From assembly GCA_028818855.1 (NCBI GenBank), contig JAPPMY010000124.1:1-64000 (forward strand): a stretch of DNA of 64,000 nt, read 5' to 3'. Shown in pieces: positions 4,398 through 53,689 of this stretch. The stretch's first letter is position 1. Each line of letters starts with the position of its first letter. The notes under the pieces are model-generated. The model was not told where the DNA came from. It saw only the letters and a program-made list of their open reading frames with translations, and searched no databases. Made by a program: the position numbers and the translations under genes. The DNA is from Rhodospirillales bacterium. GTDB lineage: Bacteria > Pseudomonadota > Alphaproteobacteria > UBA828.

Positions 4398-4516
4398 GAC
4401 GACCTCCTTCCCTGCCTCTGGCGTCCCGGTGCGGCCCCGCCCGGCCGGGGCAGGCCCGCGTCGAGTCGCAGTCTGCCACAGCGTACCCGGTCTCGGGTAC
4501 CGACGCCGGATTGAAG

Positions 4517-7072
4517 TCAGGTGCTCCCGGAGAGGGCGATTCCGCGTGCCGCGACGAAATCCCTGTAGGGGGCGAAGGCCGCGTCCACCGCTGCGGGCGT
4601 GAGGCCGTAGTCCTCCAGGCTGTATTCGTGGCGGGGCTCGTGCCGGCGCTGCTCGGCCTGGAGATCGAGCCAGTCTTCCATGGCCCCGGCGGCGGCCTTC
4701 TCCAGCGGCCAGCCGAGCCGGGCATAGATGTCCCGCGCGACCGCCATCGGGTCCGCCACCAGATCGGCATAGCGCACGTCGACCCAGCGTTCCTCGAGCG
4801 CGGGGTTGGCGGCGCGGAACCGCATGGCGCCGTTGAGCATGCCGCTCATGAACGCCAACTGCTCGGCGCCGGTCTCGTGCGGCGGCCGCGGCTCTGTGGC
4901 AAAGCCGCGAAGCCGCTCCGCCAGGCTGTTCCAGGACGCCATGAACTCGACGGGCTCGCGATGGGTCTGGATGAAGACCGCATCGGGATAGGCCTCAAGC
5001 AGAGCCTCCAGCTCCCTGAGGTGGAACGGCGCCTTGAGCAGCCAGTGCTGCTGCCCTTCCGGCTCTCGCTGACGGCGCTGCCAGGTAAAGTTCTGCATGA
5101 CGTACCGGTGATGCGCGTAGACCTCGCGGGATCCGGCTGCGGCCAGCCAGCGGCCATACTCTGGCACGTAATGCGCGATGGTGAAGGCCCAGGTCCTGAA
5201 GGCGAGCCAAAGAAGCATGAAGTCCTCCTCCGGCTCGCTCATGTCAACGCGGTGAAGCCCGGCGAGCGCGTCGATGGCCCCGGTGGCGCTCAACAACTCC
5301 TCCGCGTAGACCCGGCGGGGATCCTCTGCCGTCCAGGCGACGGTGCCGTATTCGCCGGTGGACAGGACCGGCTCGGTCAACTCGTAGCGGCGCAATGCCC
5401 AGAACTGCGGATCACGTGACAGGAGGCGATGCAGAAATGTCGTGCCGGTCCGATTGATGCCGGCGACGAAAACCGGGCGCTCGATCTCTTCTCGCTCGAT
5501 TTCGGGGTGCTGCTGGCGCTCCCGCGCGAGCGTGGCGTTGTTGCGCAGGGCGCGGGTCAACCCATAGACAACATGACTGATCGCCGTCCCCCGCAACCCG
5601 GCGTCCGGCGATTTCAACGCCTCGATCAGTTGCTTGAGCCCCTCCAGCTTCCATGCGGGATAGGTCTCTTCGAAAGGAACACCCATGCGCCGGGCGTACG
5701 TCTCGGCCTGAGCGGCCAGGCCTTCGAAATCCAGGCGGGCCTGCGGGATGGCGTGGGGCCATTTCTCCTCATTTCGTCTGAGCCAGTCGTATGACCGCGC
5801 GTGCCGGATCAGCAATGCCGGCCACTTGATCGGGCGCGGGCAATCCTCCCGAACGGCACGATCGCTGATCGGCAACGTGTGGCGAATCTTGTCCTCGCTG
5901 AACCAGTAGGGCGCGAACTGGTCGAACAGCGACCATTGCCCGTGCAGCGGAGACTCCTCACCGACCGCCTGGCACGAACGCCTGAAGGACAGATATGAGA
6001 CCTCCTGCCAATAGAACCCGAACTCCGCCACTTCAAGATCCTCATGCGGCGGCTCCGGGTCACAACAGTGATAGACGGTGAATCGCCGGTCAGGGTTCAG
6101 GGAGATCGCCGCACATATTTCGATGACCGTATCCACCGGCTCGGATTGCCTTTGTATGGTAAAGCCTTGCGGCGCCTTCTCCAGTTGAGTCGCCGCGGCA
6201 AACAGCCGGGTCGGAAAGTCGTTCGCGTGCGTATACCCTGTGCTGGGCAAACCCATCAGCGGCAGGCGAAAGATTGCGATCGGCACGCCGGCCGACTTCG
6301 CGAACAGCACGCCTTGCTCCGCCACCAGCTTGCTCCACGGATAGCCAACGACGCCGAGCGGAAAGATATTCTTCATCTCCGTGACGTCGGGTGACATTTG
6401 ATCGTCGATGCGGCTCTGACTGTATTCCCGCGCAAAGTTGCAAAAATACGCAGGAAACACGCCCATGCTGGAGACGTGAAACAGGTGCTTGATGCGGGTC
6501 CGCAGACACAGCTCGAGCACGGGACGCATGCCGAGCGCGTTCGCCTCGCGTATGTCATCGTAGGGCACGACCAGGCCCACGTTGGCGGCGAGGTGATAGA
6601 CCGCGTCGATCCACCGGGAGAGATCCGCGAACGCGGCGTCGCCGAGGCCAAACTGCTCCGCGCAAACGTCGCCGGGAAGCGCGCGGAGCCGCGGGGCAAA
6701 GTCATCCTCCCAGAGCTCGGCCTCCTCCAGGCCCTCGCGGATGCGTTCGAGGCCATGCGCCACGCTCTCGGCACGCACGAGGCAGTGCACGATCAGGCGC
6801 TCGTTCTGCTGCAACAGCGCGCGCAGGAAGAAGCGCCCGACGAAGCCGGTGGCCCCAGTCAACAGGACCTCTCGGAATTCGTTTGGCGGCACGGCCTCGG
6901 CCGGCGTCTCTCGCGCGAGCGCGGCGCGAACGACGCGACGCAGCGCGTCCACGTCTCTTTGGCATTGGGGCGGCAACCGGCCGATGAGCGGCGGCACCTC
7001 CAAGTCGGTGGCGCGTGGTTCGGCCATGCTGTCTGATCTTGCCATTCCAGGCACCGCCGCGGGGTCCGTCAT
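4517..7072 (-). CDS. Thioester reductase - sulfotransferase fusion
   Basis: The 851-residue protein has two enzyme domains. Residues about 65-440 are an extended SDR of the thioester-reductase type: nucleotide motif GATGFVG (74-79), HVSSMG with the catalytic Ser (199-204), and YPWSK giving Tyr244/Lys248. Such domains reduce acyl-S-carrier protein to aldehyde or alcohol. Residues about 530-851 are a sulfotransferase: RTGTTFLHRLL (541-551, PAPS 5'-phosphosulfate loop) and THREP (703-707, 3'-phosphate loop) with Ser713. All key residues are intact. ATG 7072 sits 17 bp downstream of the polyketide synthase stop on the same strand, so the two are surely co-expressed. Inference: it releases the polyketide reductively, and if alcohol is formed, sulfates it. 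The substrate is unknown. Confidence 0.85.
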   Translation of the reverse strand: MTDPAAVPGMARSDSMAEPRATDLEVPPLIGRLPPQCQRDVDALRRVVRAALARETPAEAVPPNEFREVLLTGATGFVGRFFLRALLQQNERLIVHCLVRAESVAHGLERIREGLEEAELWEDDFAPRLRALPGDVCAEQFGLGDAAFADLSRWIDAVYHLAANVGLVVPYDDIREANALGMRPVLELCLRTRIKHLFHVSSMGVFPAYFCNFAREYSQSRIDDQMSPDVTEMKNIFPLGVVGYPWSKLVAEQGVLFAKSAGVPIAIFRLPLMGLPSTGYTHANDFPTRLFAAATQLEKAPQGFTIQRQSEPVDTVIEICAAISLNPDRRFTVYHCCDPEPPHEDLEVAEFGFYWQEVSYLSFRRSCQAVGEESPLHGQWSLFDQFAPYWFSEDKIRHTLPISDRAVREDCPRPIKWPALLIRHARSYDWLRRNEEKWPHAIPQARLDFEGLAAQAETYARRMGVPFEETYPAWKLEGLKQLIEALKSPDAGLRGTAISHVVYGLTRALRNNATLARERQQHPEIEREEIERPVFVAGINRTGTTFLHRLLSRDPQFWALRRYELTEPVLSTGEYGTVAWTAEDPRRVYAEELLSATGAIDALAGLHRVDMSEPEEDFMLLWLAFRTWAFTIAHYVPEYGRWLAAAGSREVYAHHRYVMQNFTWQRRQREPEGQQHWLLKAPFHLRELEALLEAYPDAVFIQTHREPVEFMASWNSLAERLRGFATEPRPPHETGAEQLAFMSGMLNGAMRFRAANPALEERWVDVRYADLVADPMAVARDIYARLGWPLEKAAAGAMEDWLDLQAEQRRHEPRHEYSLEDYGLTPAAVDAAFAPYRDFVAARGIALSGST

Positions 7073-7089
7073 CGTGCCGTAAGACCCTG

Positions 7090-10000
7090 CTACTCGGCGG
7101 CCAGTGCTCCCGGCGCGCGCCTTCCGGAGCAGGGCGCCGGCGGGAAGTGGTCCTCGGGCTGGCTCGCGAACACCGAAGGATTGCGGCGGACGCGGCGGGC
7201 AGCGACCAGGGGCGCATCCCCGGCCTCGCCGTCCTCGTCGTCGGCGTCCGCCTCGTCGTCCGTCTCGGTCCCATGGACGATGGCATGCGCCAGCGACTGG
7301 CAGGAGGCCGTGGTCATCAGCTCCAGCGCGCTCGCCTGGAAGCCGAACTCGCTCTGGATGAACGCCCCGAGCTCGGCGACGGAGATGGAGTTGAGCCCGA
7401 AGCTGGAGAGCGGCTCCTCCAGGCCGCCCTCGTCGTGGCCGCAGAGCTCGGCGACCTTGGCGGCGATCTGCGCCATCACGGCCTCGACCGTCAGCCGCTC
7501 GTCGGAGCCGACGCTGAATGCGTCCTGATTGCTCATCAGGCGGCCGGTCCGCATGTAATCGGAGGACTCCACGCTCCAGAGCAGGCGCTTGAAGAGCGCG
7601 GTGATCAGGTGGTCGCTCCCGCCCATCGTGCGGAGCGCGTGGTCGAGGTTGGCGACGGCGAAGTAGCTGCTGACCGGCGGCATGCCGGCGGCCTTCATCA
7701 GGCGGAGCACGCCGAGGTTGCGCGCGGCCATGCCGGCATCGGCGACGGCCGCAAGATTGTAGGAGAGCGCCGGCAGTCCCTGGCGGTGGCGGCAGGCGGC
7801 GAGGCCGTCGAGATAGGCGTTGGCGGCGCTGTAGTTGATCTGCCCCGGATTGCCGAAGGTGGAGGACGTGGACGACACCATGACGAAGTGATCGAGGGCG
7901 AGGCCTGCGGTGGCCCGGTGCAGATTGAGCGCGCCCCGGGCCTTGGGCGCGAACACGCGGGCCAGCGACTCCGCCGAGAGGTCCGCCAGCAGGCAGTCGT
8001 CCAGCGTGCCGGCCAGGTGGAACACGCCCTTGAGCGGCTTCTTTGTATTGGCGACGCAGCGGCGCACGTCCGCCTCCACCGCGACGTCGCCCTGGACGAG
8101 ATCGATCTCGAGTCCCTTGCCTATGTCCGTAAGGGTCGTTGAGCGCCGCAGCCAGGATTCGCTCCGGCGGCGCGCGGGGTCGCGGTCCATCAGGGTAAGG
8201 TGGCGGGCGCCGGCGCTCACAAGGTAGGGCAGAAGCCGCTGGCCGAAGCCGCCGAGGCCGCCGGTCACGAGGTAGGTCGCATCCGGGTCCAGCAGCGGCC
8301 GGCGGTCGTCGATGGGGAAGCCGGGATCGGCGGACGCCGGCGGCGCCTGAAGCACCAGCTTGCCCTGGTGCTGGCCCGTCGTCATCAGGCGGAGCGCCTT
8401 CGCGTAGTCGCCGTAGGGGAAGACGGTGACCGGCAGCGGCGGCACCACGCCGCGATCGAGCAGGTCGAGGCAGGCCTGGGAAAGCTCGCGGGAGAGCAGC
8501 GGATCGTCGACCATCAGGCGGTCGAGGTCGATGGCCGCGAAGCGCAGGTTCTTGCGGAAGACGCGCAGGCCCAGCGCACTGTCGGCGTAGATGTCGACCT
8601 TGCCGATCTCGCAGTGCCAGCCGCCGGGCCGGAGTGCCTCCAGGCAGAGGGACACGTGGCGGCCGGCCAGCGAGTTCAGCACGACATCGACGCCCTGGCC
8701 GCCGGTCGCCTGCATCAGCTCCGCGTACCAATCCTCACTGTGGGAATCGAAGGCCGCCCGGACGCCGAGTTCGAGCAACCGCGCGCGCTTGCTCTCGCTG
8801 CCCGCCGTGGCGTAGACCTCCGCACCCACGTCGTTGGCAAGCGCGATGGCCGCCTGCCCGATGCCGCCCATTGCCGAATGGATGAGGACGCGCTGGCCCT
8901 TGCGGAGCCGCGCCAGGTGAACGAGGGCGTAATAGGAGGTGACGTAGACCGAGAGCGACGACGCGGCTTCCTCCATGCTGAGGCCGGCGGGCTTCGGGAA
9001 GACGCGGTGCTGGCCCACGACCGTGCGGTTGGCGATGCAGCCGCCATCGACGAAGACCACCTCGTCGCCGGGCTCCAGCCCTTCCACCGCCGTGCCGGCG
9101 CGGCGGACCACGCCGCTCGCCTCCATGCCGACCTCGCGGCCGAGCGCCGAGCGTTCGTAGGCGAGCGCCGGCAGCAGGCCGAGCGTCACCATGACATCGC
9201 GGAAGTTGAGCGCCGCCGCGGCCACCTCGATCTCGACGTGGTGCGGCCCGAGCGGCGGCGGCTCGTAGGTCTTCATCTGGAGGCCGGCGATCTGGCCCGC
9301 GTTCTCCAGGAAGAGCCGGTAGGGCGGGTGCTCGCCGGCCGGCACGGGCGGGAACTCCTGCCGATTGCTGAGCACCCGGGGCACCCAGAGCCGGCCCGCG
9401 CGCACCGCAAGCTCGCGCTCGCGCAGGTCGTGCCGCGCGAGCCACGCGAGCGTCTTCAGGTCGCCGGCGTCGCCGAGATCCACGAGGCGGAAATCGAGCT
9501 TTGCCTCGTCTGCGACCTCCGCCGCCATGCTGCGTACCGCGCCCCAGAGCGCGCTGCCGCGCGCATCGTCCGCATCCAGGATGGCCTGGCGGGTCACCAC
9601 GGTGAGGCGGCATCGGCCGCTCGCTTGGTCGATCCTGTAGGGCACCAGCGACTGGATTAAGGCGACGAGGTGTGAGACGGCCCGCTCACCGGTCGGATCC
9701 TCCGGGTCCCGGTCGAAGAAGACGTCGATCGCCTGCACGTCTTCCGCATGCGGACACGCCTCGGGATCGAGGCGCTCGTCCGACGCGAGGGACTCCCAGG
9801 CAAGCGGATGGACGGAAGGATCGTCGAGCAGGCTCGCCCAGGCGGCGGCCCAGCTCTGCGGCTCGCCCAGCACCCAGCGGGGGCCCGGCAGCGCCGCGTC
9901 GCCCGGCTCGGCCGCGCTCCAGGACGGCGCCTGCAGCAGGGTCGAGCCCCGACCGGCACGCAGCGTGCGCCAGCCGGCGGCGGGCGCGATGGCCCGGCCC

Positions 10001-13000
10001 TCGTCGTGGGAGACCAGCGCCAGAGCGCCGGGGACCGCCACCGCCTGCCAGAAGCTCCATTCCTCGGCCGTGAACGCCTGCGCGTCGCTGTGCAGGAACA
10101 GGACCTCGGCCGCGTGCCGGCGCAGCAGGCCGCCCTCGAGCGCGGCGGGCTCGCGCGCGGTGGGATCGAGGCAGTCGAAGCGAAGCGCGGCGTCGTGCCC
10201 GTGGAAGGCGTCGAAGTGCGCCCGGGCGCCCTCCTCGTCGTCGCCGATGAGCCAGAACTCGCTCTGCGCCTCCTGCCGCGACAGGTGGTCGACACAGCGG
10301 TGGAGCACGGTCCGCTCCGGCTCCAGGGCGCCGGCAAACTCCAGCGCATGGCAGGCGCGGACGTCGCCGCCCTCGTCCTCGGGCCGCTCCAGGGCGGCGA
10401 TCAGCGCGGCGGGCTCGATCTCGCCCTCGGGCAATCGCTCCGCAATCGCGCGGCCGTCGGCGACGAACTTCGGCTGCCAGGCGATGCGGTGCTTGCTGTG
10501 CGGCAGGTCGACCCGCCTCGGGTTCGAGATGAAGGAGATGTACTTTTCGATGTGAAGGACGAGGTCCCCGGTCGCGCCGTCATAGCAGCTCAAGCTGCCT
10601 GAGACCCACTCGCCCGTCTGCACGGAGTATTGGCCCTTGTCGTCGACTTCGTAGCGAATTCCGCCGGGATAGGTTACGCGACAGGTCATCCGCGGCACCG
10701 TGGGTGGGCGCAGGAACGTCACGTTCTCGGCCCGGCGCGGAATGGCAAAGAGATCTGCGCCGAGCATCAGGTCGTAGAGATACGACTGCAGTCCACCGTC
10801 GAGCAGGGCCGGAAACAGGACATAGCCCTCCCTCTGGCCGCCTCGCCACAACGCTTCGTCCATCTCGACATCGAACAGCAGGTGGTCGGTAGCCACATCG
10901 CGCCGCAGGCGGCGCATGTTCCGGAAGTTGGGGCCGTACTGGAATGTCTCGCCGAGGACCGCCTCGAAACGTTCGTAAAGTTCATCGTCCGCCCCATAGG
11001 CCAGGGGCTGGTAGCGCGAGGCGTCGATCTCGGACACGTTTGCCGGCACGTCCGGCACGTTGTCGGGCCCGATGCGCCGCACATGCCCACAGCCGTGCAG
11101 CTCGCTCTTCGCGTCGATGTCGTAAGGCTGGGTCGTTACGGTGAGGGTGAATTCGTCCGGCGAATTGGGGACCGGCTGCAGGGCCGTCTGCAGCGGCACC
11201 GGCGTCCTCGGGATCGGGCAAGGCTGCAGGAATTCCAGCATCTCTATATGGACGGGCGCACCTTCGAGAGCCTGCAGAACGAGTTCTATAAAGCCGGCGG
11301 CCGGCATGATCGGCGCGTGATGCACGCGGTGCTCCGCCAGCCACGGAAAGGCTCGTTCCGATAGCCGCGCTTCGAACGAAAGGCGGTCGCCCGGTATGCG
11401 GTGGCCGACCAGGGGCCCGTGCGCGTACTCGCTCTGATAGAGGAAGAATTCGTCATCGAGCGTCCTGTCGACGGTCTTCTGCTCGTCGCGCGGGTGCCCC
11501 GGCAGCAGGGGGACGATGGGGTCCGGCCGCGGATACTGGGCGGCGAAGTCCAGCGGGACGCCGGCCCTGAAGAGGGCGCCGAGCGCCGCGTGGAAGGCGA
11601 GGCGCGTGTCGGTCTCCCGCATCAGGGTCGGGATGGAGACGGGCGGCGATGCGGCGCCTTCCACGCACTGGGCGACGATGGGCTGGAGCGCCGAGTGAGG
11701 CGCCACCTCCAGCACCACATCGGGCCGGTGCTCGCGGATCACCGTCTCCATCGCGGCGGCGAAGCGGACAGGCTGGCGGATGTTGGACCACCAGTAGGCG
11801 CTGTCCAGCCGCTCGGCCGCCGCGCCCGTCACGGACGAGACGAACGGCACGTCAAGCTCGAAGGCGCGATCGGCGAGGAAGGCAAGCGCGTCGGATGCGC
11901 CGTCCCTGATGGCGTCCATCGCCCGGGAGTGGAAGGCGATGTTGCCTGGGATCAGGCGGTTCTGGAGGCTGCGGCGATCCAGCGCCTCCATCACCGGCTG
12001 GAGGTCTCCCTCGCGGCCGCAGATGACGGTGTTGGCCGGCGCGTTCTCGCAGGCGATCTCGACGGCGACGGGCCCGCCCTCCTCGAGGCGGAAGGGGATC
12101 CTCATCTCGTCCAGCAGCTCTTCCACGCCGGGCCGGTCGAGGCCGATGGAGAGCATGCGGCCGGACCCTGCCACGCGCTGCTGCAGGGTGGCGCGATGGA
12201 AGACCAGGCGCGTGGCATCGGCAAGCGAGAGCGCGCCGCAGGCGTAGGCCGCGGCGACTTCGCCGGAGCTGTGGCCCACCACGCAGTCGGGATAGACGCC
12301 CCAGGTCTTGAACAGCTCCACCAGCGCGCACTGGATCATGAAGATGGCGGGCTGGGCGAGCTGAACCTCGTCGAGCTCGTCCTGCGGAGCGGAGAAGCAG
12401 GCCTCGCGCAACGAGGTCGTCGCATGTTCGCGCCAGTGCTCGTCGATGGCGTCGACGGCGCGGCGGAACACGGGATGGGCATCGTAGAGCGCGCGGCCGC
12501 AGCCGGCCCACTGAGTCCCCTGCCCGGCGAACACCATCGCGAGCCGCCGCTCGCCCTCCTCCGCCGAGGCGATGGGCGCTTCCTCCTCCACGAAGGCATC
12601 CAACGCCTCACTCAATTCGGGCACGCTCCGCGCCACGAATGAGGTGCGCGCGGCGAAGTGGGTGCGGCGGCGGCTGAGATTGCCGGCGAGCGCGTAGAGA
12701 TCCACCGATTGGTCGTCGAGCAGCCGGCGCAGACGCCCCGCGCTCTCGATCAGCGCCTTCGGCGTGCGCGCCGAGAGCGGGATCATGTAGCCCGCGTCAG
12801 GCGCCAGCGGCAGCGACCAAAGCCGGGGCCGCAGCGGCCGGTGCTCGCGCACCACGCAGTGCCCGTTGGCGCCGCCGAAGCCGAAGGAGTTGATCCCGAC
12901 GACGACGGGGTGCTCGGGGAACGGCTCGCATTCCGTCTGCACCTCCATGGGGCAACGCGCGAAGTCGATCTCCGGATTGGGGGCCTGGAAGCTCTTGGAC

Positions 13001-14157
13001 GTGGGCGCGAAGGTGCGCCGCCGCATCATCAGGACGACCTTGAGGAGCGCGCAGTGGAAGGCGGCGGCCTCCATGTGCCCGACGTTGCTCTTGACGCTGG
13101 AGACCCGGAGCGGGTCCGCGCGCCCGGAATCGCCGAACGCCTCGGCAATGGCGTTGCCCTCGATGCGGTCGCCGACGGCGGTTCCCGTGGCGTGGGCCTC
13201 GATGTAGTCGAAGTCGCGCGGCGAGAGGCCGGCGCGGGCCGACGCCGCGCGCATCAGCTCGACCTGAGCGTGGCGGGTGGGTGCGCTGATGAAGCGGCCG
13301 GGCGCGAGGCCCGCTGAACCGTCGGCCGTCCCGGCTGCGTTCACCGCGGTCGATTCGATCACGGCGTAGATGGGGTCGCCGTCGCGCTCGGCCGCCGCGA
13401 GCGGCTTGACGGCGAAGACGAACGAGCCTTCGGAGCGCATGTAGCCGTTGGCCCCGGCATCGAAGGAATGGCAGGTGCCGTCCGGGCTGATGATCCCCAT
13501 GAGGTTGAAGCTGCTGCTCATCCGGGCACTGCCGAGATAGGTGACGGCGCCGACGAGCGCCTGGTCGCAGTCGCCGCTGCGGAGCGCGTTCATCGCCGCG
13601 TGCAGCGCGGTCACGCCGGCGGAGCAGGCCGTGCAGTAGGTCGCCGACGAGCCCATGAGGTTGAAGTGGTAGGAGACGCGGTTGGCCAGCATGGCGAGGC
13701 TGATGCCGGAGACGGAGTACTCCGTGACGCCATGTTGCGGCCGCCAGTTGGAGACGGCCGGAACCTGAGAGCCGATGAAGACCCCGGTGGGGCTGTTGCG
13801 CAGCGAATGGAGATCCCAGCCGACGTGCTCGATGGCCTCCCACGCGCAATTCAGCAGCATCCTCACCTGCGGCTCGGTCTGCCTCAATTCGTTGTGGGAC
13901 ATGCCGAAGAAGGCGCGGTCGAAGAGCAACTCGTCCTCGTCGCGGATCAGCCCCTCGTAAGGGCTCGCGAGGCGGCCGGGGCCCGAAAATTCTCCTATGG
14001 GGACGTGGCCCTTGCCATAACGAACGCTTATAGGCTCCCGGACGACCTCGCGCTCGCTCAGCAGGCGCCAAAAATCCGCATCCGAGCGGATGCCGCCCGG
14101 CATGCGGTGGCTGTAGCCCACGATGGCGACCCCGTCGCCGACGTTGCGAGCGTCCAT
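7090..14157 (-). CDS. Type I polyketide synthase, one fully reducing module
   Basis: The 2355-residue protein is ordered as follows. KS about 8-440, with Cys178 in TACSA, His322 in HATGT and His361 in KSNVGH. AT about 538-850, with Ser630 in GHSSGE and an AFHS motif suggesting malonyl-CoA. DH about 905-1210, with His943 and Asp1120-x3-Gln1124. A central region about 1230-1610. ER about 1612-1940 with SAMGGIG. KR about 1955-2180, with TGGLGGFG, an LDD motif typical of B-type, and Tyr2109/Asn2113. ACP about 2220-2300, with Ser2257 in GLNS. There is no loading domain or thioesterase, so an iterative fully reducing synthase released by the adjacent reductase is the simplest reading. ATG 14157 directly precedes the KS domain. 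The first DH motif has His where Gly is usual. The C-terminal tail is acidic, then basic. Confidence 0.93.
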   Translation of the reverse strand: MDARNVGDGVAIVGYSHRMPGGIRSDADFWRLLSEREVVREPISVRYGKGHVPIGEFSGPGRLASPYEGLIRDEDELLFDRAFFGMSHNELRQTEPQVRMLLNCAWEAIEHVGWDLHSLRNSPTGVFIGSQVPAVSNWRPQHGVTEYSVSGISLAMLANRVSYHFNLMGSSATYCTACSAGVTALHAAMNALRSGDCDQALVGAVTYLGSARMSSSFNLMGIISPDGTCHSFDAGANGYMRSEGSFVFAVKPLAAAERDGDPIYAVIESTAVNAAGTADGSAGLAPGRFISAPTRHAQVELMRAASARAGLSPRDFDYIEAHATGTAVGDRIEGNAIAEAFGDSGRADPLRVSSVKSNVGHMEAAAFHCALLKVVLMMRRRTFAPTSKSFQAPNPEIDFARCPMEVQTECEPFPEHPVVVGINSFGFGGANGHCVVREHRPLRPRLWSLPLAPDAGYMIPLSARTPKALIESAGRLRRLLDDQSVDLYALAGNLSRRRTHFAARTSFVARSVPELSEALDAFVEEEAPIASAEEGERRLAMVFAGQGTQWAGCGRALYDAHPVFRRAVDAIDEHWREHATTSLREACFSAPQDELDEVQLAQPAIFMIQCALVELFKTWGVYPDCVVGHSSGEVAAAYACGALSLADATRLVFHRATLQQRVAGSGRMLSIGLDRPGVEELLDEMRIPFRLEEGGPVAVEIACENAPANTVICGREGDLQPVMEALDRRSLQNRLIPGNIAFHSRAMDAIRDGASDALAFLADRAFELDVPFVSSVTGAAAERLDSAYWWSNIRQPVRFAAAMETVIREHRPDVVLEVAPHSALQPIVAQCVEGAASPPVSIPTLMRETDTRLAFHAALGALFRAGVPLDFAAQYPRPDPIVPLLPGHPRDEQKTVDRTLDDEFFLYQSEYAHGPLVGHRIPGDRLSFEARLSERAFPWLAEHRVHHAPIMPAAGFIELVLQALEGAPVHIEMLEFLQPCPIPRTPVPLQTALQPVPNSPDEFTLTVTTQPYDIDAKSELHGCGHVRRIGPDNVPDVPANVSEIDASRYQPLAYGADDELYERFEAVLGETFQYGPNFRNMRRLRRDVATDHLLFDVEMDEALWRGGQREGYVLFPALLDGGLQSYLYDLMLGADLFAIPRRAENVTFLRPPTVPRMTCRVTYPGGIRYEVDDKGQYSVQTGEWVSGSLSCYDGATGDLVLHIEKYISFISNPRRVDLPHSKHRIAWQPKFVADGRAIAERLPEGEIEPAALIAALERPEDEGGDVRACHALEFAGALEPERTVLHRCVDHLSRQEAQSEFWLIGDDEEGARAHFDAFHGHDAALRFDCLDPTAREPAALEGGLLRRHAAEVLFLHSDAQAFTAEEWSFWQAVAVPGALALVSHDEGRAIAPAAGWRTLRAGRGSTLLQAPSWSAAEPGDAALPGPRWVLGEPQSWAAAWASLLDDPSVHPLAWESLASDERLDPEACPHAEDVQAIDVFFDRDPEDPTGERAVSHLVALIQSLVPYRIDQASGRCRLTVVTRQAILDADDARGSALWGAVRSMAAEVADEAKLDFRLVDLGDAGDLKTLAWLARHDLRERELAVRAGRLWVPRVLSNRQEFPPVPAGEHPPYRLFLENAGQIAGLQMKTYEPPPLGPHHVEIEVAAAALNFRDVMVTLGLLPALAYERSALGREVGMEASGVVRRAGTAVEGLEPGDEVVFVDGGCIANRTVVGQHRVFPKPAGLSMEEAASSLSVYVTSYYALVHLARLRKGQRVLIHSAMGGIGQAAIALANDVGAEVYATAGSESKRARLLELGVRAAFDSHSEDWYAELMQATGGQGVDVVLNSLAGRHVSLCLEALRPGGWHCEIGKVDIYADSALGLRVFRKNLRFAAIDLDRLMVDDPLLSRELSQACLDLLDRGVVPPLPVTVFPYGDYAKALRLMTTGQHQGKLVLQAPPASADPGFPIDDRRPLLDPDATYLVTGGLGGFGQRLLPYLVSAGARHLTLMDRDPARRRSESWLRRSTTLTDIGKGLEIDLVQGDVAVEADVRRCVANTKKPLKGVFHLAGTLDDCLLADLSAESLARVFAPKARGALNLHRATAGLALDHFVMVSSTSSTFGNPGQINYSAANAYLDGLAACRHRQGLPALSYNLAAVADAGMAARNLGVLRLMKAAGMPPVSSYFAVANLDHALRTMGGSDHLITALFKRLLWSVESSDYMRTGRLMSNQDAFSVGSDERLTVEAVMAQIAAKVAELCGHDEGGLEEPLSSFGLNSISVAELGAFIQSEFGFQASALELMTTASCQSLAHAIVHGTETDDEADADDEDGEAGDAPLVAARRVRRNPSVFASQPEDHFPPAPCSGRRAPGALAAE

Positions 14158-14215
14158 GTGAACTGAACTTCGACGAGAAGGCGTGGGTGACGCCGCACCG
14201 GCGACTACCTGACGA

Positions 14216-14244
14216 CCAGTCGGTGAAACGGAAAACCCGACTGG
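14216..14244. repeat. Inverted repeat in the polyketide synthase leader
   Basis: Perfect 8-bp arms CCAGTCGG and CCGACTGG are separated by 13 bp. The site lies about 60-90 bp before the synthase start and downstream of the predicted promoter, so it would be in the 5' leader. It has no following T-run, so it is not a normal terminator for the RidA-like gene. An operator or an RNA hairpin are both possible. Confidence 0.4.
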
Positions 14245-14319
14245 CCCTAGTCGATCGTGCCGCGTTTCAAGCCTTTTCGGTCGGCCTTCCTCCCCTTGGT
14301 CGACACGCGATGTTGAAAT

Positions 14320-14348
14320 CCTATAGCCAACGGCGCGATCACCTCCAA
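14320..14348 (-). promoter_or_regulatory. Candidate promoter for the polyketide synthase operon
   Basis: On the minus strand, TTGGAG (14348-14343), a 17-bp spacer and TATAGG (14325-14320) resemble a sigma-70 promoter. It lies between the RidA-like gene and the synthase, about 160 bp before the start codon. Prediction by eye only. Confidence 0.4.
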
Positions 14349-14402
14349 TATCGATTTCTTGGCCGCTCCATAAGTTTCGCTGATCGCTGGAGGCGTCCCT
14401 GC

Positions 14403-14813
14403 CTACGAGTCCACGATCTCGCCTTCGACCATGGCGATCGCCTCGATCTCGATTTCCAGCTCGGGCAGCGCGAGGCCCGTGATCTCGACGATGGTGTCGG
14501 CCGGATAGGGCGGTGTGAAGTACGTCTCGCGCAGGTCCACGATCTTGCCGAAGTTCCCCATGTCCTTCAGGTAGATGTTCACCTTGACGATCTTGGCCAA
14601 GCTGGAGCCGCCGGCCTCCAGCACCGCCGCCAGGTTCCTGAAGGTCTGCTCGGCCTGTGCGTCGAAATCGCCCGCGCCGACGACGTTGCCGTCTAGGTCG
14701 ATGGCAGCCTGGCCCGAGACGAAAATCAGGTCGCCGACGCGGTAGGCCTGCGCCAGCCTGAAAGCCTCGTAGGGATCGGGGTCGGTCTTGATACGAAGGG
14801 CGTTCTCGGCCAT
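14403..14813 (-). CDS. RidA (YjgF/YER057c/UK114) family protein
   Basis: The 136-residue protein is a RidA-family trimer subunit: VGDLIFVSGQAAIDLDGNVVG, the QTFRNLAAVLEAGGSSLAKIVKVNIYL core, and the C-terminal YPADTIVEITGLALPELEIEIEAIAMV strand pair. In true RidA a conserved Arg before TxVxV binds enamine or imine substrates. Here that place reads YPADTIVEI, with Asp in the region, so imine deaminase activity is doubtful. It lies 245 bp upstream of the polyketide synthase on the same strand and is divergent from the crotonase gene. It could belong to either pathway. Confidence 0.85.
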   Translation of the reverse strand: MAENALRIKTDPDPYEAFRLAQAYRVGDLIFVSGQAAIDLDGNVVGAGDFDAQAEQTFRNLAAVLEAGGSSLAKIVKVNIYLKDMGNFGKIVDLRETYFTPPYPADTIVEITGLALPELEIEIEAIAMVEGEIVDS

Positions 14814-46749: not shown

Positions 46750-47088
46750 ATGGAAGTGAGCAGCGAGCGGTGCGGCGATGTCCTGGTCGCAGGGGTGAGC
46801 GGGCGGATCGATCCGAAGAGCGCGGGCACGCTCGAGGCGACGATCACCAAGGCGCTCCAGAATGGCGACCGGGCCGTGATCCTGGACTTCGAGCAGCTCA
46901 CCTATATCGGCAACGTCGGCCTCCGCGCGCTTCGAATCACCGCCAGGATCCTTCGAGACCGTGAGGTCAGCCTGGCCATCTGCGCGCCGCAGGGGGTCGT
47001 CGCCGCGGTCTTCGCGGGCAGCGGAGCGGACAGGCTCATCAAGGTCTACCCGAGCAGGGCTGCCGCCCTCGAGGCTCTGAAAGACTGA
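46750..47088 (+). CDS. STAS-domain protein (anti-sigma factor antagonist-like)
   Basis: The 112-residue protein is a stand-alone STAS domain: VLVAGVSGRIDPKSAGTLEATI, AVILDFEQLTYIGNVGLRAL and VAAVFAGSGADRLIKVYPS. Classical antagonists have Ser at the phospho-site of the YISS-GLR loop. Here it reads YIGNVGLR with Asn, so this protein probably cannot be phosphorylated there. It has its own upstream gap of 229 bp divergent from the P450 gene. No anti-sigma kinase is nearby. It may be constitutively active or purely structural. Confidence 0.85.
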   Translation: MEVSSERCGDVLVAGVSGRIDPKSAGTLEATITKALQNGDRAVILDFEQLTYIGNVGLRALRITARILRDREVSLAICAPQGVVAAVFAGSGADRLIKVYPSRAAALEALKD

Positions 47089-51500: not shown

Positions 51501-52559
51501 CTACATGCCCTTCACGAACGTCCTGTTGGCCTCCGGGATCTCGGGCACGGTGCCGAGGTAGGCGTGGCGTGACATGTCGGGCGAGTACCGGCTCGCCGGC
51601 GGGCGGCGGCCCAGCGCCTCCGCCATGCTGCGGACATGGTGAGGGGCCGCGCCGCAGCAGACCCCAAGGTAGCCCACCCCCAGATCCCGCGCCGCCTTGG
51701 TGAACTCCGCGATCTCGTAACGGTTGCACGCCAGGTTGTCGAGCGCGGTGGGGAAGGCGCGTCCCTCCGGCAGGCAGGCGCAGTCCGCATCGCTCATCGA
51801 GAGGAAGGTCGGCTCGTTGGCGCTAGTGCGGTAGGCCACCGGCAGCGCCGAGACGTGGCAGCTCACCGCCTCGCGGATGGAGCGCAGCAGCGGCAGCATG
51901 GTCGCAGGCCCGCGCACGCAGTTGAGCCCGACCACGGCGGCGCCCGCGTCTTCCAGGCGCTTGCACGCCTCGGCAGGGGTCAGGCCTTCCCGGGTGAGCG
52001 GCTCGCGGAAGATGGCGAGGTTGATCACCGCAGGCAGCCCCGCCTCGTTGATGGCGTCGAGCGCGAGCAGGGCCTCGCTGACGTAGGAGATGGTCTCGGC
52101 GACGATGAAGTCCACGCCTTCGTCGACGGCCCAGCCCACCTGCTCGTCGAACATGGCGCGAACCATCCGCGCGGACTCCGGCTCGCCGTCCACGTAGACG
52201 TTGGAGTTGCACACGTTGCCGGCGACCAGCGCGTCGCCTTCCTGCGCCACGGTCCGCGCGAGGCGGATCGCGGTGCGGTTCATCTCTTCGAGCGCGCCCT
52301 CCTTGCCGATCAGCCGAAGCTTCTCCCGATGAGCGTAGTAGGTGAACGCGAGCATGACGTCGGAGCCCGCGCGCAGGAAGTCGCGGTGCAGCCGTATCAC
52401 CGCGTCGGGGTGTTCGAGCACCGCCTCGGGCACGTAGGGGCCGGCGGTCACGTAGCCGGCGCGCTCCAGCTCGAACAGGTAGCCCTCGGCGCAGATGACC
52501 GGCCCCGCCTCAAGGCGTTCGAGAAGGCCCGTGGTGGCGGTCGCTGAAGGGTCGATCAT
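51501..52559 (-). CDS. Homocysteine S-methyltransferase family protein, copy A
   Basis: The 352-residue TIM-barrel protein has the zinc-cysteine signature of this family: Cys in GLNCVRGP and the CC pair in GVCCGAAPHHVR. AGNVCNSNVYVDGE and FIVAETISYVSEALLAL are also present. Members transfer methyl from S-methylmethionine or similar donors to a thiol. The donor here is unknown. It is a tandem paralogue of the next gene with the same length. The last residues converge on the Rieske flavoprotein gene with an 17-bp gap. Confidence 0.87.
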   Translation of the reverse strand: MIDPSATATTGLLERLEAGPVICAEGYLFELERAGYVTAGPYVPEAVLEHPDAVIRLHRDFLRAGSDVMLAFTYYAHREKLRLIGKEGALEEMNRTAIRLARTVAQEGDALVAGNVCNSNVYVDGEPESARMVRAMFDEQVGWAVDEGVDFIVAETISYVSEALLALDAINEAGLPAVINLAIFREPLTREGLTPAEACKRLEDAGAAVVGLNCVRGPATMLPLLRSIREAVSCHVSALPVAYRTSANEPTFLSMSDADCACLPEGRAFPTALDNLACNRYEIAEFTKAARDLGVGYLGVCCGAAPHHVRSMAEALGRRPPASRYSPDMSRHAYLGTVPEIPEANRTFVKGM

Positions 52560-52630: not shown

Positions 52631-53689
52631 CTACAGGTTCTTCGAGAAATCCTTGTATGCGGACGGGACCTTGTCGGACGTGCCGTAGAAGGCGTGCGTC
52701 GACATGTCGGGCGAATACCTGCTCGCGGGCGGGCGGCGGCCCAGCGCCTCGGCCACGGCGCGGATGTGATGCGGCCCCGCGCCGCAGCAGACTCCGAGAT
52801 AGTTCACACCGAGCGCGTGCGCGGCCCTGGCGAATTCCTCGATCTCGTAGCGGTTGACCGTGAAGGGATCGAGCGCCACGGGGAAGGGGCGCCCGTCGGG
52901 CAGGCACGCGCAGCCGGGATCCTCGAGCGACTGGAAGGAGGGCTGCTCCTCGGTGGTGCGGTAGGCCACCGGCAGCGCCGCGACGTGGCAGCTCACCGCA
53001 TCGCGCATGGGGCCGAGCAGCGGCAGCATGGTGGCAGGTCCGCGCGTGCAGTTGAGCCCGACCACGTCGGCGCCGCCATCCTCCAGGCGCTTCGCCGCCT
53101 CGGCCATGCTCAATCCGTCCCGCGTGATCGGCTCGCGGTGCACGGCGAGGTTGATGACGGCCGGCATGCCTGCGGCCTTGATCGCCTCCAGCGCGAGCAG
53201 GGCCTCGCTCACGAAGGAGATGGTCTCGGCGACGATGAAGTCCACGCCCTCGTCGACGGCCCAGCCCACCTGCTCGTCGAACATGGCGCGAACCATCCGC
53301 GCGGACTCCGGGTCGCCGTCGATGAAGACGTTGGAATTACATACATTTCCGGCGACCAGCGCGTCGCCCTCCAGCGCTGCCTCCCGCGCGAGGCGGAGCG
53401 CGGTGCGGTTGATCTCCTCCAGCGCGTCCTCCTTGCCGATCAGGCGGAGCTTCTCCCGGTGGGCGTAGTAGGTGAACGCGAGCATGACGTCGGAGCCTGC
53501 GTGCAGGAAGTCGCGGTGCAGCCGCGCCACCGTGTCCGGGTGTTCGAGCACGGCTTCCGGCACGTAGGCGCCGGCGGAGAGATAGCCGCGGCGCTCGATC
53601 TCGAACAGGTAGCCCTCGGCGCAGATGACCGGCCCTGCCGCCAGCCGCTCCAGCAGGCCCGGTCCGCCAGCCACGGTGGCGTCAGTCAT
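52631..53689 (-). CDS. Homocysteine S-methyltransferase family protein, copy B
   Basis: This 352-residue tandem paralogue of copy A keeps all metal ligands (GLNCTRGP, GVCCGAGPHH). The two share most of their sequence, and a 97-nt block (53215-53311) is identical to 52085-52181 except for one base. It lies 71 bp upstream of copy A on the same strand, so both are likely transcribed together. Differences in loops (for example SDKVPSAYKDFSKNL at the C-terminus) may reflect distinct substrates. Confidence 0.87.
   Translation of the reverse strand: MTDATVAGGPGLLERLAAGPVICAEGYLFEIERRGYLSAGAYVPEAVLEHPDTVARLHRDFLHAGSDVMLAFTYYAHREKLRLIGKEDALEEINRTALRLAREAALEGDALVAGNVCNSNVFIDGDPESARMVRAMFDEQVGWAVDEGVDFIVAETISFVSEALLALEAIKAAGMPAVINLAVHREPITRDGLSMAEAAKRLEDGGADVVGLNCTRGPATMLPLLGPMRDAVSCHVAALPVAYRTTEEQPSFQSLEDPGCACLPDGRPFPVALDPFTVNRYEIEEFARAAHALGVNYLGVCCGAGPHHIRAVAEALGRRPPASRYSPDMSTHAFYGTSDKVPSAYKDFSKNL

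Follow-up and report, generated by a model that had tools for sequence, protein, structure and literature searches.

A copy of the swf polyketide synthase cluster, inserted among housekeeping genes of a probable sponge symbiont

Two adjacent open reading frames, both on the minus strand at 4517–14157 of the window (the whole 64,000-nucleotide stretch of DNA that was analysed), are almost certainly a copy of the swf cluster, as judged by ORF and Pfam analysis and by their signature motifs. The pair is not a new system, since this cluster of sponge symbionts was already published in 2013: swfA encodes a mono-modular PKS/FAS, swfB a reductase joined to a sulphotransferase and swfC, present in some of the clusters, a radical SAM protein (PMC3908369). 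The assembly that holds the window is MAG-like (4.78 Mb, 294 contigs), and the host is a Defluviicoccus-like alphaproteobacterium, probably a sponge symbiont. Taking the explanation as a whole, we think it somewhat probable that the pair represents the swfAB of such a symbiont, in which an acyl chain would be built iteratively, released by reduction and then sulfated to give an alkyl sulfate. The window pair shares the mono-modular synthase, the fusion, the motifs and the gene order with the published clusters PS11G3 and PSA11D7; PSA11D7, too, is limited to swfA and swfB at its locus and was published without swfC (PMC3908369). It differs from the published clusters in its Defluviicoccus-like host, in its housekeeping site between mlaD and a RidA-family gene, and in that the swfC of the genome lies on another contig.

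SwfA (7090–14157, minus strand) is a mono-modular, fully reducing type I PKS/FAS of 2355 amino acids with the domain order KS-AT-DH-ER-KR-ACP; the published SwfA proteins have 2349 and 2361 amino acids (PMC3908369), and the homologues are 60–87% identical. A sequence-only reading of this DNA had described a one-module, fully reducing PKS without thioesterase or loading domain, and Pfam confirmed this by giving just these six domains in SwfA, with no loading domain in it and no thioesterase in either SwfA or SwfB. All the published SwfA signatures are present in the window protein, namely a DPQQR box in which the second Q is changed to V or I (here EPQVR), HATGT, IAFH, GHSSGE and the unique QCALVEL (PMC3908369). 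The KS, at approximately 12835–14136, has its Cys in TACSAG, followed by EAHATGT and KSNVGH; across the alignment, 34 of 38 rows have V or I in place of the second Q of the box, and all 38 keep HATGT. The AT (11557–12534) contains GHSSGE, the malonyl-type IAFH and QCALVEL, which is found only in swf. In the DH (approximately 10663–11415), the catalytic His 943 and Asp 1120 are invariant in 41 rows, while the ER (approximately 8338–9300) carries the NADPH motif HSAMGGIGQ and the KR (7741–8280) an LDD motif with the catalytic Ser and Tyr. The KS Cys and both His, the AT Ser and His, the DH His and Asp, the KR Ser and Tyr and the ACP Ser are all intact, and the cofactor motifs of ER and KR are kept. 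The earlier observation that active-site residues are intact in both proteins of the pair holds over 38–49 aligned rows, depending on the domain, in which these positions are invariant or conservatively replaced.

The capsule synthases WcbR and RkpA were also considered and ruled out: they have intact DPQQR and HGTGT motifs and lie inside a cluster for capsule polysaccharide synthesis and export (PMC3908369), whereas SwfA has both motifs altered and no capsule cluster as neighbour. Besides swfA, the host genome has a second, larger PKS in two pieces, L105 (G000:C34) and L106 (G000:C237), one of them with a C-methyltransferase domain. Its KS is 35–37% identical to that of SwfA, and genomes of the same genus have a version of about 3460 amino acids.

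The ACP of SwfA (7279–7470) bears its phosphopantetheine Ser 2257 in FGLNSIS. Among the 41 aligned rows, nearly all have GL(T/N/S)SI here rather than GxDS; T, N or S precedes the Ser in every one of them, and the usual Asp is absent. The published swf ACP was left unmodified by E. coli AcpS and was fully modified by Svp, an Sfp-type enzyme (PMC3908369); to judge from the alignment, the missing Asp is a likely reason for both the failure of AcpS and the need for an Sfp-type enzyme. Two genes of the ACPS family (PPTase family) are encoded in the host genome, and the ACP would be primed, probably, by the Sfp-type phosphopantetheinyl transferase of this genome.

SwfB (4517–7027, minus strand) is a fusion of a thioester reductase (NAD_binding_4, E = 2.5e-48) and a sulfotransferase (Sulfotransfer_3, E = 8.6e-37), as had been read from the letters alone. 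It has 836 amino acids from the ATG at 7027, or 851 from the ATG at 7072; published SwfB proteins have 832–839 (PMC3908369). The gap of 17 bp between the genes that was first given holds only with ATG 7072. In at least six homologues, an in-frame stop falls on the residue aligned with SwfB position 13, and the family has a consensus Met near residue 16, so that translation most likely starts at ATG 7027, 62 bp past the swfA stop. The Pfam cores cover 6119–6862 for the reductase and 4700–5476 for the sulfotransferase, both on the minus strand, and an AlphaFold2 model (pLDDT 87.4) gives two full domains, at residues about 32–446 and about 444–836, respectively. Tyr 244 and Lys 248 of the reductase are invariant in a 49-row alignment; at residue 202, 48 of the 49 rows have Thr and the window has Ser, a change that is probably harmless. 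In the sulfotransferase, the 5' phosphosulfate- and 3' phosphate-binding motifs GINRTGTT and THRxP...SWxS (THREP...SWNS in the window) are kept in 48–49 rows. Residues 444–836 of the model match Stf1 of M. tuberculosis (PDB 2zq5; Z 38.8, rmsd 2.7, 358 residues) and, with both binding motifs and this fold, the domain is a PAPS sulfotransferase of the Stf1-like kind (PF13469). Residues 32–446 match the myxalamid terminal reductase MxaA (PDB 4u7w; Z 41.0, rmsd 2.9, 381–382 residues), whose R domain, at about 28% identity, is the closest solved relative of the SwfB reductase in both sequence and structure. MxaA and Stf1 are the closest solved folds of the two SwfB halves, but they are separate proteins from unrelated pathways; outside swf, a contiguous pair of reductase and sulfotransferase was reported only at the end of the coccidian type I FAS (PMC3908369).

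For the chemistry of the pair, we give a mechanism ending in an alkyl sulfate about an even chance. The single SwfA module would iterate with malonyl-CoA to form a mostly or fully reduced acyl chain, the iteration, the starter and the chain length all being presumptive. Because there is no thioesterase, the SwfB reductase would take the chain off the ACP, using NADPH and probably two rounds of reduction to reach a primary alcohol. Such a four-electron release is deduced from the resemblance to MxaA (about 28% identity): the myxalamid R domain falls in a group reported to give primary alcohols by four-electron reduction (PMC2835699), and a reduction of this kind would supply the hydroxyl for the sulfotransferase. 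The fused domain would then move sulfate from PAPS to this alcohol, and we infer that it acts on the reductase product rather than on some other hydroxyl. SwfC, a B12-radical SAM protein encoded on the other contig, may methylate the chain. The domains, the intact catalytic residues, the constant pairing of swfA and swfB, the purifying selection, the two PPTase-family genes and an APS kinase gene (for PAPS) in the host genome support this mechanism. On the other side, expression of the whole swf cluster in E. coli gave no product, and such alkyl sulfates are not known as widespread in sponges (PMC3908369). A literature search limited to open-licence papers found no later product assignment for swf. 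That the chain is released by reduction and then sulfated to an alkyl (primary) sulfate had already been proposed for swf (Della Sala 2013, PMC3908369). Thus, the release model that the sequence-only reading put forward for this pair is sound and plausible, but it was published before, and the claim that it is a distinct release logic fails.

The reductase might instead stop after two electrons, giving an aldehyde, and the sulfotransferase would then sulfate another lipid or some other hydroxyl of the chain. Carboxylic acid reductase R domains, which stop at the aldehyde, also match the SwfB model, with Z 31–33, and the acceptor of the sulfotransferase is not readable from sequence. We nevertheless regard this as rather unlikely, with the four-electron MxaA R domain as the nearest solved relative in both sequence and structure and with the fusion kept in all homologues, which favours the handing of the reductase product to the sulfotransferase.

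Olefin synthases and CurM of the curacin pathway likewise have a PAPS sulfotransferase at the PKS end. In them the sulfate serves as leaving group and a thioesterase releases the product, whereas in swf the thioester reductase is the sole release domain; an olefin synthase with sulfotransferase-thioesterase release was ruled out, as neither protein has a thioesterase domain. A related route, in which the sulfotransferase would sulfate an ACP-bound beta-hydroxyl as leaving group and the reductase would release a sulfate-free aldehyde or alcohol, unsaturated or allylic, seems improbable to us. Sulfation is used as activation by olefin synthases (PMC3908369), and SwfA could leave a beta-hydroxyl if its last round skips ER and DH, but without a thioesterase the decarboxylative elimination cannot run as known. 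Moreover, the sulfotransferase comes after the reductase and not ahead of a thioesterase, and a PDB sequence search with this domain returned only Stf1 and Stf9 as convincing matches.

A scan of 84,980 species genomes by SwfB alignment gave 49 SwfB loci (L016–L064), mostly full-length, and two reductase-only matches; the scan relied on two exact peptide patterns, both taken from alphaproteobacterial SwfB, and more distant fusions could escape it. Co-occurrence of the PKS and the fusion, suggested earlier as a check, was found throughout: SwfA lies upstream on the same strand in all 46 SwfB loci with upstream contig sequence, either directly or with swfC between. About 30 of the 49 loci have swfC at or near them, between swfA and swfB, downstream on the same strand or convergent. 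By MAG label, the hosts are Alpha- and Gammaproteobacteria, Nitrospirota, Latescibacterota, Acidobacteriota, Gemmatimonadota, Rhodothermota and Verrucomicrobiota, and every one of the 49 matches comes from a MAG. Several of these MAGs have bin prefixes (RHO, IRC and COS) that fit the host sponges of PMC8163846; other bins are named jk18x and p16x. The closest SwfB to that of the window, 82% identical, is in the 'Defluviicoccus sp.' bin RHO2_bin_2. In a profile search, full SwfB was present in four of 385 alphaproteobacterial genomes (two of 276 genera), and swfA and swfB are also found in the same-genus genomes G014–G017. A plasmid collection gave no record of the reductase-sulfotransferase fusion covering 80% of the query.

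To explain the nine host groups on the SwfB tree, 14 changes are required where 8 would be the least possible, and clades of mixed hosts are well supported. The pattern points towards horizontal transfer, although misbinned contigs could contribute to it. Clusters of the swf type were already reported, independently of taxonomy, in Nitrospirota, Latescibacterota, Acidobacteriota and Tectomicrobia (PMC9426513, 2022; PMC10227082, 2023, 'Ca. Thalassonella'), so the wide host range is an extension and not a discovery. What is added here are Rhodospirillales, Rhodobacterales, Gammaproteobacteria, Gemmatimonadota, Rhodothermota and Verrucomicrobiota (all by MAG label), the tree and an empty insertion site.

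Many of these loci have a gene for a STAS-domain (anti-anti-sigma-like) protein up to about 2 kb upstream of swfA: L029, L031–L034, L040–L043, L045 and L049, and, in the same position, L051–L053, L055, L060, L062 and L063. In L037, L046 and L059 the gene is on the other side. The presence of STAS genes near swf suggests partner-switching control. No STAS gene adjoins the window swf copy; the one clear STAS-like match in the window, at 46750–47085 (32% identity, E = 2e-14), lies far from swfA.

In the window, swfA and swfB alone form an inserted segment of about 9.9 kb (4500–14407), flanked by mlaD and the RidA-family gene, and its edges match the adjoining ends of an empty site in the same genus (L116, 5608|5615). 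In G015, the window edges 4499 and 14408 map 7 bases apart. The same-genus genomes G014, G015 and G017 all have mlaD beside RidA without swf between, and their swf genes are elsewhere. At this site G020 retains three short pieces of swfA, in order, and the C-terminal 113 residues of swfB (L115 4128–4728, G020:C147), which would be either a decayed swf copy, left by a genuine deletion in several steps, or a collapse in the assembly. The mlaD-RidA gap of G017 (L117 about 5900–6300, G017:C14) contains a short antitoxin-like frame, read by eye, that starts MRTTIDVNDDLLQAV. The spot between mlaD and RidA may accept insertions repeatedly.

The neighbours of the window copy are aroQ-, accBC-, aat-, mlaD- and trp-type genes. 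That mlaD and DUF2155 lie just downstream had been taken as a hint of an outer-membrane lipid, and a pathway coupled to them would be a further explanation of the locus. The two genes are indeed there, but the three same-genus empty sites, in genomes with swf elsewhere, largely refute this coupling. Moreover, no gene flanking the window copy, not even mlaD or DUF2155, is again found in synteny with swf at the 49 other loci or at the same-genus L104, and a housekeeping block of accC, aat, DUF2155 and mlaD also occurs in another genus of the family (L120). The neighbours are thus incidental, and we find the coupling hardly credible. Elsewhere in the window, two tandem sequences of about 1 kb (51550–52531 and 52680–53661), 83% identical, are an apparent gene duplication.

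Purifying selection on swfA and swfB is clear, with dN/dS of 0.18–0.23 for both genes in the comparison of the window with two relatives. Together with an intact window copy that has all its catalytic residues, this makes it very improbable that the locus is decaying or cryptic and has no present function, an explanation that could draw on the G020 remnants at the same site and on internal stops in a few homologues. The stops are found in swfB of L026, L032 and L048 and in swfA of L027, and the swfA of L032 also lacks its middle; these may be pseudogenes or assembly errors. Taken together, the wide host range and the empty site suggest a locus that passes from genome to genome and is retained by selection.

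The description of a two-gene system holds for the locus but not for the genome, where a third gene is present. No swfC-like match (E ≤ 1e-3) was found within the 64-kb window, and swfC lies on the separate contig C94, where it encodes B12-binding, Radical_SAM and DUF4070 domains and is 81% identical to the swfC of locus L016.

Two PKS families are reported to be widespread in high-microbial-abundance sponges, and swf is one of them. The near-complete genome studied here shows that swfC can be unlinked from swfAB, and therefore a fosmid with just two of the genes may be missing an enzyme that is needed. A broader reading, possible but somewhat doubtful, is that swfA, swfB and swfC have spread horizontally as a set and enable symbionts of many phyla to make one and the same lipid, a primary alkyl sulfate that may be methyl-branched. 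The release that forms it, first reductive and then sulfating, would be of a kind so far demonstrated in no organism, and the lipid would act in sponges as a surface or symbiosis factor that these bacteria share. If this is true, the clean two-gene insert described here would be one unit of the spread of swf. We think that the ACP motif and the unlinked swfC can help toward an experimental answer on the swf product.
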